DNA from: a bacterium
GTDB taxonomy: Bacteria > Planctomycetota > Planctomycetia > Planctomycetales > Planctomycetaceae
Direction of reading: 5' to 3'
NCBI GenBank assembly: GCA_016124895.1
Contig: WGMU01000098.1
Location: 1 to 64,000 of the forward strand
DNA length: 64,000 nucleotides
Shown here: one piece after another, positions 53,636 to 56,103 of the stretch
How positions within the stretch are numbered: the first letter of the stretch is position 1
Layout of the letters: each line of letters starts with the position of its first letter
Position numbers and translations under genes: made by a program
Notes under the pieces: model-generated
Database searches by the model: none
Told to the model about the DNA's origin: nothing
The model's input: only the letters and a program-made list of their open reading frames with translations

Positions 53636-54994
53636 TTAAATCCCAAACTCATCCAGAGGAACTGGGACACTCCATCCCGGATGACTCGCCCAATCAACCC
53701 ATGCAGAATACGAAATATCAGGCCGCACGGTCGTTACGGCATCCAATACCCCTCTGACGAAACTGTTTGAGTTGTAGTATCCCGGATGAGATTCAGGAAA
53801 TAAATGGTAGTTGAGATTGTCACCGTATGCCCCCGCGATACCAAGGATCGTGGTAATCATGTCGTTTTGATCGCCACTTGAGATTGACACATCGCTTAAC
53901 GTCCCCCCCTGAGCCTCAAACATCGTCACGCTCTCTGGGACTGGATATCTCCGCAGTTTCCCCAAATTCAGAGGGTTCGTGGGATTCGACGCGTCAGCGC
54001 TTACTATAGTGTAGTGCATCGGCGTGTGCCCCACATACAGAATCTGTGCAAAGGCCGGATCGTTTTTCCACGTCTCTTGATCGTCCGGAACAATAAGAAT
54101 CGCTGTATGGTAGTATTGCGTGCCCAAAACTGGCCGCTCCACAAGAAATACGCCAGTCGCATACCATTCGTCCTCTGGAATTACGCCTACCCCAACTTGC
54201 ACTTTAGCCTCATGCCCTGATTCGTCGATCGCAACAACAATCAAGTCATGGGCGTTTTGGCATTCGTAGTCGACAGTGCCGTATGTCTTAATTACTGCTT
54301 CGCCGTTTTCGTGGTCAGCATAGAAAACGTATGAACTGTCCCATGTCGACGGATCATCAATCGAACCACCCGAGGCGATGTCAATCTCGTAAACTTCTAA
54401 AGACAGATTCGTGTTTGGTTGCGGATCGGTCACCGGGATAGCGCCGAGCACATCGCCCATGTCTGCGACTTCGGAGATTTCAAAGAACCACTCCGTCTCA
54501 GGCGCCGGAGGATCTGAAAAAACTGGATCCTCTGCTACATCATTGACACGGACCACAAGCGTTGCCTGTGCGAACTCCATCATCATCATATCCATCGCCT
54601 CTATGGTCACCTCAATGAGTCGATCGCTGTTCGGATCATTGGGGTCAGAAAGTGGCAAGCTCTCGTAGTCGATTGACATCGGGTTATCCAGAACAAGTTC
54701 TCCGCCACCCATTCCGTCGATCGAAACCGAGAAGGCATATGCTGGGTCATCGACGATGTCCACGTAGTCCCCAGTATACGAAAAGCTGGCCACAACAGAC
54801 CCGTACGGAAGATCCTCATTGATGTCGACTGGCCCCGAAGGAGCGGTGACCGAAACAGTTAGCAGCACCTTCGATTCCAGCTCTTCCGCGGCGACGTGAC
54901 AGGGCACAGCAAATCCGGATCGTGTGGCCCGTCTTCGTGGAGTTGGGAAAAGTGTTTCAGAAAGGCATCGAAATAGACGGGACGCATATCGCAT
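53636..54994 (-). CDS. Secreted cadherin-like protein with LEPR-XLL-like N-terminus, AT-rich
   Basis: A 452-residue protein from ATG 54994; AAGGAG seven bases upstream decides the start. Residues 30-45 read AAEELESKVLLTVSV, a form of the planctomycete LEPR-XLL-type N-terminal motif of secreted proteins. Two cadherin/Ig-like beta domains follow (EDLPYGSVVASFSYTG, VEVTIEAMD.., TLVVRVNDVAEDPVF). The C-terminal 160 residues (GTQYYHTAILIVPDDQ, GYYNSNSFVRGVLDAV) have an H and an N-S-F pattern. That could be a permuted papain/NlpC-like fold without catalytic Cys, but this is speculative. AT-rich; probably an outer-surface protein. Confidence 0.68.
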   Translation of the reverse strand: MRYASRLFRCLSETLFPTPRRRATRSGFAVPCHVAAEELESKVLLTVSVTAPSGPVDINEDLPYGSVVASFSYTGDYVDIVDDPAYAFSVSIDGMGGGELVLDNPMSIDYESLPLSDPNDPNSDRLIEVTIEAMDMMMMEFAQATLVVRVNDVAEDPVFSDPPAPETEWFFEISEVADMGDVLGAIPVTDPQPNTNLSLEVYEIDIASGGSIDDPSTWDSSYVFYADHENGEAVIKTYGTVDYECQNAHDLIVVAIDESGHEAKVQVGVGVIPEDEWYATGVFLVERPVLGTQYYHTAILIVPDDQETWKNDPAFAQILYVGHTPMHYTIVSADASNPTNPLNLGKLRRYPVPESVTMFEAQGGTLSDVSISSGDQNDMITTILGIAGAYGDNLNYHLFPESHPGYYNSNSFVRGVLDAVTTVRPDISYSAWVDWASHPGWSVPVPLDEFGI

Positions 54995-55155
54995 AGGTGT
55001 CTCCTTGGAGTCGTAACAAAAACCACGCAGAGAACGAACTATCCAGAAGGAGACAGACGATACCCACCGTCTCGATCGATACAACGAGAATCTTCGCAAG
55101 ATTCAAGTTTTCGAGATTTTCGTGACAGGACTCCGATTGAAGAATTGCCCGGCTA

Positions 55156-55389
55156 GGTGGCTGGGGTCGAGTGCAGCGAGCCCCAGCTGTTCGAGAGTGA
55201 CTTGAGCCATGACTCCGAAACATCACCATCGCCGAAACTGCAACGAACCGGCTCACGCTCACGGGCTGACGTTTTCGTGTTACCAGCGGTTTCGATTTCT
55301 GCAGGCAGAACGGACCTGTCAATGGCTGCCGGAGGCGATCGATGAGGCGAGGAAACGCTGGGGGCTCGCTGCACTCGACCCCAGCCACC
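55156..55389. mobile_element. REP-like element: two inverted palindromes enclosing a RAYT remnant
   Basis: GGTGGCTGGGGTCGAGTGCA at 55156-55187 recurs as an inverted copy at 55357-55389 (32 of 33 positions). Each arm is itself a hairpin (GCTGGGG / CCCCAGC). Between them is the 5' end of a RAYT-like reading frame. This is a MITE- or REPIN-like structure. Confidence 0.75.
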
Positions 55390-55412
55390 CGTCCGTTCGC
55401 CAAACCACGTAG
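55209..55412 (+). pseudogene. Truncated REP-associated tyrosine transposase (RAYT)
   Basis: The frame reads HAHGLTFSCYQRFRFLQAER, then TCQWLPEAIDEARKRW, the characteristic start of Y1-type RAYT (TnpA-REP) proteins, including the aromatic-rich LTFSCY motif. After EARKRW the sequence runs into the inverted palindrome and ends after about 67 codons. Therefore the HUH and catalytic Tyr regions (residues 60-150 of the family) are absent. It cannot be an active transposase. Its location inside inverted REP-like arms indicates internal deletion of a once complete element. Confidence 0.75.
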
Positions 55413-55504
55413 GCCGGACCAGGCGCAGCGCCGCTCCGGCAATGTCTGCTGAATTTCGATGGGGCTGCCGGAACAGCGTCGCTGCGCTCCTGGGTCCGGC
55501 CTAC
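55409..55504. repeat. Large palindrome with GTAG at both ends
   Basis: CGTAGGCCGGACC at 55408 is matched by GGTCCGGCCTACG ending 55505, with inner arms GCGCAGCG / CGCTGCGC and CTCCGGCA / TGCCGGAA. It lies directly downstream of the minus-strand HEAT gene and adjacent to the RAYT remnant element. Confidence 0.88.
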
Positions 55505-55509
55505 GGGCT

Positions 55510-56103
55510 TCACGGTTTCGATTCCGTTGATTTCAGAAGCTTCAATGCCTCCGCCGCGTTCGCTCGGACGGCTGATGACTCGTCATCGAGTGCGGCGGTC
55601 AATCCGTTGACGACGCTTTCCTCGGCGATGCTGACTTTGCCGAGTGATTCCGCCGCGGCCGCGCGAACGGACTCGTCGGAGTCGTGCAGGGCTACCAGCA
55701 AAGCGGCAGCCGCTCGGCGGTTGTTTGTTCCGATGAAGGCCAGCACGAATGTGGCAACATGGCGATCCTCTGCCTGGATACCTGATTCCAGCTTGCGGGC
55801 CACTTCAGATACAGCCGACCGTCCATGCGGCCCGATGACTGTCAGTAATTCGACGGCCGCCTGGCGATTGCCGTCGTGTTTAAGCACCCAGGGCGTAAGC
55901 TGCTTGAGTACGGCTGGCGTCGCAATTTCTGCCGCACGCGGAGACTGCTTGAGCGTGGCCAGGATATCGGCCTCGGTGTCGTCCATTCCAACGAAAGGGA
56001 AGAACTGGGGCATGAAATCCTGAACGCTCTTCTGAAACACCTGCTGAGCCTGCTGGTGAGCCGAACAGAGCGCAGGATGCTCGCCGAAGGAGATACAGGT
56101 CAA
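55510..56103 (-). CDS. HEAT-repeat protein
   Basis: The protein has 197 residues and no signal peptide. HEAT/armadillo-like helical repeats of about 32 residues fill residues 90-195 (RSAVSEVARKLESGIQAEDRHVATFVLAFIGTNNRRAAAALLVALHDSDESVRAAAAESLGKVSI, then SVVNGLTAALDDESSAVRANAAEALKLL). The N-terminal 80 residues contain LATLKQSPRAAEIATPAVLKQL. It may be a C-terminal remnant of a longer HEAT gene, since upstream starts are poor. It lies 127 bases downstream of the amidohydrolase-like gene and next to the REP palindrome. Confidence 0.65.
   Translation of the reverse strand: MTCISFGEHPALCSAHQQAQQVFQKSVQDFMPQFFPFVGMDDTEADILATLKQSPRAAEIATPAVLKQLTPWVLKHDGNRQAAVELLTVIGPHGRSAVSEVARKLESGIQAEDRHVATFVLAFIGTNNRRAAAALLVALHDSDESVRAAAAESLGKVSIAEESVVNGLTAALDDESSAVRANAAEALKLLKSTESKP

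Follow-up and report, generated by a model that had tools for sequence, protein, structure and literature searches.

INTRODUCTION

A REP is a palindrome with a GT[AG]G foot (PMC6006769). The genes for RAYTs, the Y1/HUH transposases also called TnpAREP, are described as mostly single-copy, with no evidence that they move (PMC2817692, PMC8266576). Nunvar et al. report no sign of IS-like mobility (PMC2817692) and Corneloup et al. no evidence for the mobility of tnpAREP (PMC8266576). The suggested origin of REPINs lies in the palindromes flanking an ancestral IS200-like gene (PMC3116915). Within the Planctomycetes, Di Nocera et al. describe GTAG repeats and, in R. baltica, many tyrosine transposase genes with flanking repeats (PMC3733652).

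Here, we analyze the first 64,000 nucleotides (positions 1–64,000, forward strand) of contig WGMU01000098.1 in the Planctomycetaceae assembly GCA_016124895.1, a stretch that we call the window. The genome assembly has 195 contigs totalling 8.13 Mb, with a completeness of 99.78%. The window contains a 234-base element (55156–55389) in which a GTGG-foot REP, a 21-bp leader and the first ~49 codons of a RAYT gene are joined directly to the same REP in inverted orientation (Table 1). We conclude, with a probability of roughly 0.86, that the element arose by internal deletion from a REP-RAYT-REP unit ('REPtron').

RESULTS

Two inverted REPs bound the element

The two arms (55156–55184 and 55361–55389) are fully complementary over 29 nt (29/29 bp) across a gap of 176 nt, and simple arithmetic places the chance probability of a perfect 29-bp pair within ~250 bases far below 1e-10. 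Both arms belong to imperfect palindromes of ~32 nt whose outer ends carry a GTGG foot, which is the GT[AG]G-foot structure of a REP. The inverted palindromes reported in the initial annotation are therefore present, with 29 perfect base pairs and a few differing loop-side bases (left ...CCCCAGC, right ...CCCCCAG) in place of the 32 bases that it gave. When folded alone, the left arm forms a hairpin of -9.8 kcal/mol (z -3.2) and the right arm one of -6.7 kcal/mol (z -1.5), while self-folding of the whole element has a z of -7.3. The element consequently has the form of a REPIN, with two inverted REPs, outward feet and a hairpin.

Table 1. Features of the element and its residual open frame (window coordinates)
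Feature	Position	Strand	Evidence or remark
Left GTGG-foot REP (GGTGGCTGGGGTCGAGTGCAGCGAGCCCCAGC)	55156..55187	+	Hairpin and pairing of arms; same REP upstream of intact RAYTs L129, L130 and L087
Leader, REP to RAYT start codon	55188..55208	+	L129 and L130 alignments span REP, leader and gene
RAYT 5' fragment, codons 1 to ~49	55209..55357	+	Free of stops and frameshifts; without HUH and Tyr motifs
Right GTGG-foot REP, inverted	55358..55389	-	32–34 bp identity with dispersed REPs of the same-genus genome G043
Residual 67-codon open frame	55209..55412	+	RAYT N-terminus, then right REP read through; probably non-functional

Long inverted repeats can be chimeric, and the arms might on that account be an assembly or fold-back artefact. 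The right arm is not a copy of the left, and its match to the G043 REPs includes the CCCCCAG difference; it is therefore a REP in its own right, and we consider an artefact extremely improbable. The 29/29 identity of the arms would fit a recent formation or homogenisation. Taken alone it is weak evidence, because a full unit in a related genome (C103 in G044) also has near-identical arms.

The open frame begins as a RAYT and ends before its core

The frame starts with an ATG and, from codon ~50 onward, is the right REP read through. The 67-aa fragment ends short of the domain core and for that reason is not matched by the Pfam and NCBIfam profiles. A custom RAYT profile of 190 positions, built from three intact RAYTs with the window sequence left out, matches it at positions 1–52 with E=7.3e-20. 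The profile search proposed in the initial annotation thus comes out silent with curated families and positive with a profile of intact RAYTs. The fragment has 69–75% amino acid identity to the intact L129 and L130 proteins over 48 residues, and a tblastn search of the locus with an intact RAYT query recovered codons 1–48 alone; the C-terminal part of the RAYT was not found downstream of the element by the same method. The full-length relatives score 90.7–96.2 bits against NF047646 (NCBIfam REP_Tyr_transpos; cut-off 80), and the RAYT profile matches the E. coli TnpAREP 4ER8 (E=1.6e-6).

The fragment stops ahead of MPEHVH, and the MPEHVH, WQ and Y---NP motifs are all missing. The N-terminal homology of a RAYT is accordingly present, while the HUH motif and the catalytic Tyr (Y---NP) are absent, and it is the absence of this HUH/Tyr core that makes the element a RAYT relic and not a RAYT. 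In this respect, the initial annotation had correctly described a RAYT-like start, cut before the core and enclosed by inverted REPs.

The short frame might still encode a functional small protein, such as a REP-binding regulator derived from the RAYT N-terminus. Its 49 RAYT codons have remained open, and compared with L130 they show synonymous differences in 18 codons and non-synonymous ones in 12. However, this substitution pattern can date from the time of the whole gene, the C-terminal 18 residues are read from the REP and unique flank, and there is no conserved truncated orthologue, the truncation end points differing between genomes. We judge such a function to be very unlikely.

Intact relatives share the layout

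The same GTGG REP lies just upstream of the RAYT start in L129, L130 and L087 (the last from G040), and the window's REP, leader and ATG are collinear with the intact units L129 and L130 at the DNA level. Further REPs follow the RAYT in L129, and in L132 several such REPs precede the gene in + orientation and inverted ones follow it. Among the conditions that would refute its reading, the initial annotation had named the absence of full-length RAYTs with matching flanking arms; these relatives possess them, and the element's own genome has none.

These data also bear on the proposal that the arms are independent REP insertions bracketing a decayed, unrelated or chance ORF. Such REPs are dispersed in relatives, where inverted pairs are common. 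Against this stand the homology of the fragment to RAYTs (E=7.3e-20), the collinearity with L129 and L130 and the fact that the two arms are the only REPs of their family in 8.1 Mb, and we give this proposal almost no credence.

Other RAYT arrangements were seen in the same collection. In G040, four matches to RAYT profile positions 131–176 lie ~220 bp apart (C1:572989–573783) beside a full-length match at 572426, and may represent RAYT 3' fragments arrayed in tandem. In G003 (L311, L312) and G157 (L308, L309), RAYT-bearing stretches of ~700–1100 bp are 90–95% identical between sites and partly tandem, in contrast to the single-copy pattern reported for RAYTs.

The element is stranded in its own genome

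The GTGG REP has exactly two occurrences in the element's own genome, which are the two arms, and a relaxed pattern found none besides these. The initial annotation had also called for a search for copies of the 234-bp unit, and none was found elsewhere in this genome or in 101 family genomes. The genome contains eight Y1 transposase matches, the nearest RAYT having ~40% protein identity, and neither the GTGG REP nor the adjoining GTAG REP is near any of the eight. A close intact RAYT or an intact parent was not found in this genome or in the genus. Because the REP occurs in the arms only and a close intact RAYT is lacking, the GTGG RAYT-REP system is extinct in this genome. The arms do not form a dispersed REP family here (two copies), though the REP is dispersed in same-genus G043, and the element has neither the replicated population nor the cognate RAYT of a REPIN. 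On sequence grounds, the element is a single-copy, stranded relic. The active or recent RAYT-REP system proposed in the initial annotation is not supported by these results, and the GTAG palindromes invoked in its support are a different, dispersed family.

Dozens of copies of the GTGG REP are scattered through G043, and some of them form outward-foot pairs 13–32 bp apart, which are REPINs. A profile search of this genome (84% complete) did not find a close intact RAYT. We rejected two candidates: RAYT pieces on contig C590 of G043, which belong to a different, distant Y1 gene, and a DNA match in G049 that apparently ran past the REP into RAYT codons, a weak extension.

A GTAG-foot REPIN lies 20 bp right of the element, at 55409–55440 and ~55473–55508, with outward GTAG/CTAC feet and arms at 55403–55420 and 55493–55510. 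The GTAG REP is found in at least 20 places in the genome; within the window this REPIN is its sole match. To the left of the element, a 487-codon frame (53636–55099, minus strand) has a weak cadherin-domain match (E=0.002), and to its right are HEAT-repeat and amidohydrolase genes. Amidohydrolase and DUF1501-like neighbours are also present in G043, and no homology to the element or to the HEAT gene was found beside them.

Deletion derivatives have multiplied in related genomes

A survey of 170 family genomes, mostly draft assemblies, with an N-terminal RAYT profile identified several broken RAYTs beside many intact ones; candidates were picked by their short open frame, and their counts are not a rate. 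Several of the broken ones have inverted repeats on both sides, having lost codons ~43–150 (L231), ~42–106 (L277), ~56–125 with an added frameshift (L275) or everything after codon ~24 (L233).

The most extensive series is in G044, a 170-contig draft. Its three full units (C136, C21 and C103) are 81–83% identical in different surroundings, and their homology ends at the REP feet GGGTGGC...GCCACCC, boundaries which suggest that whole units moved. In L233 (C18:25446–25651), the REP, the leader and ~24 codons are followed by GCGTTCGTCTGGGGG, which in the full unit C136 is the post-stop flank and the start of the downstream REP. Because this junction keeps the parental post-stop flank, L233 is an internal deletion and not a REP insertion, and the comparison with C136 indicates that its right REP was originally the downstream REP of the parent, placed there by the deletion. 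A different deletion derivative of one and the same RAYT unit, L290 (28722–28999), lies 3.3 kb from L233 on C18.

On contig C112, another derivative (REP, leader, ~10 codons, short junction, inverted REP) is present in four copies that are 89–94% identical and differ in their flanks, with homology stopping at the REP feet. All four lie within 4.4 kb, and a separate, unrelated repeat occurs near two of them. Local duplication followed by a change of flanks retains some probability as the source of these copies, against which their flanks, the extra repeat excepted, share no homology. The amplification is not recent, because the derivative copies differ by 6–11%.

Shorter RAYT 5' pieces are kept at C144, C51 and C21:45993–46165, and minimal REPINs with spacers of ~12 bp are found on C104, C28, C24 and C110. 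From this gradient, we infer a step from derivatives to minimal REPINs. At L351 (C104), L352 (C28), L353 (C24) and L355 (C110), near-identical GTGG REPINs lie within a larger inverted repeat, AGGCAGTTTCAAAAC...GTTTTGAAACTGCCT, flanked in part by TA; by analogy, they resemble a MITE of the IS630 type that took up a REPIN and dispersed it.

An independent case, because its repeats belong to another sequence family, is found in G013, a single-contig genome. Two copies of one derivative, 89.7% identical and ~3 kb apart, accompany an intact relative (L303), and the copies have no homology past their inverted repeats. Relative to L303, the derivative has a ~260-bp deletion between two GACTGGCTCGA direct repeats that are visible in L303, a pattern suggestive of slippage or of recombination between short direct repeats. 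The locus L302, considered as a full gene, was rejected; it is the second copy of the derivative.

An internal deletion best explains the element

The ancestor would have carried a GTGG-REP, a short leader, a RAYT of ~185–190 codons, a short 3' flank and an inverted GTGG-REP, as judged from the relatives. Everything between codon ~50 and the edge of the downstream REP, the 3' flank included, would then have been lost in a single deletion. Replication slippage or illegitimate recombination, possibly aided by a REP hairpin, would account for this loss. With two outward-foot REPs around a spacer and no transposase, the product is a REPIN or MITE in its topology, and its movement would depend on a cognate RAYT supplied in trans. 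In its own genome, the cognate enzyme and all other REP copies are gone, leaving the element stranded. Since neither the genome nor the genus has an intact parent, the exact deletion ends and the parental 3' flank cannot be read from the window copy.

The main rival, which concerns the right arm, is that the RAYT gene received a REP insertion near codon 50 and that the rest of the gene was lost later by separate events. The coding fragment runs straight into the right arm, without a 3' flank that can be recognised, and REP insertions within tnpAREP genes (subclass 2.4) are reported (PMC6006769). However, this route requires two events, no downstream RAYT remnant was found, and the comparable G044 junction, with its post-stop flank, records a deletion. 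We regard an insertion as unlikely and favour an internal deletion.

DISCUSSION

The series in G044 (three full units, 5'-RAYT derivatives, leader-only forms and minimal REPINs) and the pair in G013 are the kind of intermediates predicted by the suggestion in PMC3116915; we found no report of such intermediates in the accessible portions of the open-licence literature searched. Sequence comparison of these relatives supports the conclusion that RAYT units, once internally deleted, can give rise to multicopy elements resembling MITEs or REPINs. With gutted copies multiplied in relatives, an old idea on the origin of REPINs becomes directly testable. The initial annotation had called the locus the likely birth form of a REPIN or MITE: the multicopy derivatives in G044 and G013 bear this out for the family, while the window copy is single and its mobility unsupported. 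Tentatively, and at somewhat less than even odds, REP-RAYT-REP units across the family may still move whole and shed internally deleted derivatives that multiply and erode into REPINs, with the window element as a frozen first step of REPIN birth.

Like a MITE, it is short, has no working transposase gene and retains terminal inverted repeats after an internal deletion of a transposase unit, the deletion being inferred from relatives. It differs in that its termini are the REP hairpins of an HUH system and in being single; multiple copies at different sites are found for the C112-type derivative and the G013 pair. The TIRtron/TIRYT (PMC3733652) is likewise a unit in which inverted repeats enclose a RAYT-like gene, whereas the bounding repeats of the element are true GTGG REPs. 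With the REPIN (PMC3116915), the element shares two inverted REPs, outward feet, a spacer and a long self-complementary hairpin. It differs in having a 170-nt leader/RAYT spacer instead of a short, unrelated one, in being present once and in lacking a cognate RAYT within its genome. In the REPtron/RAYT (TnpAREP) system (PMC2817692, PMC6006769, PMC8266576), palindromes with GT[AG]G feet surround a Y1/HUH transposase gene, and the element's intact relatives pass NF047646. The window copy differs from this system by the missing catalytic core, and the full units of G044 occupy three sites with ends at the REP feet, in contrast to the mostly single-copy RAYTs of that literature.
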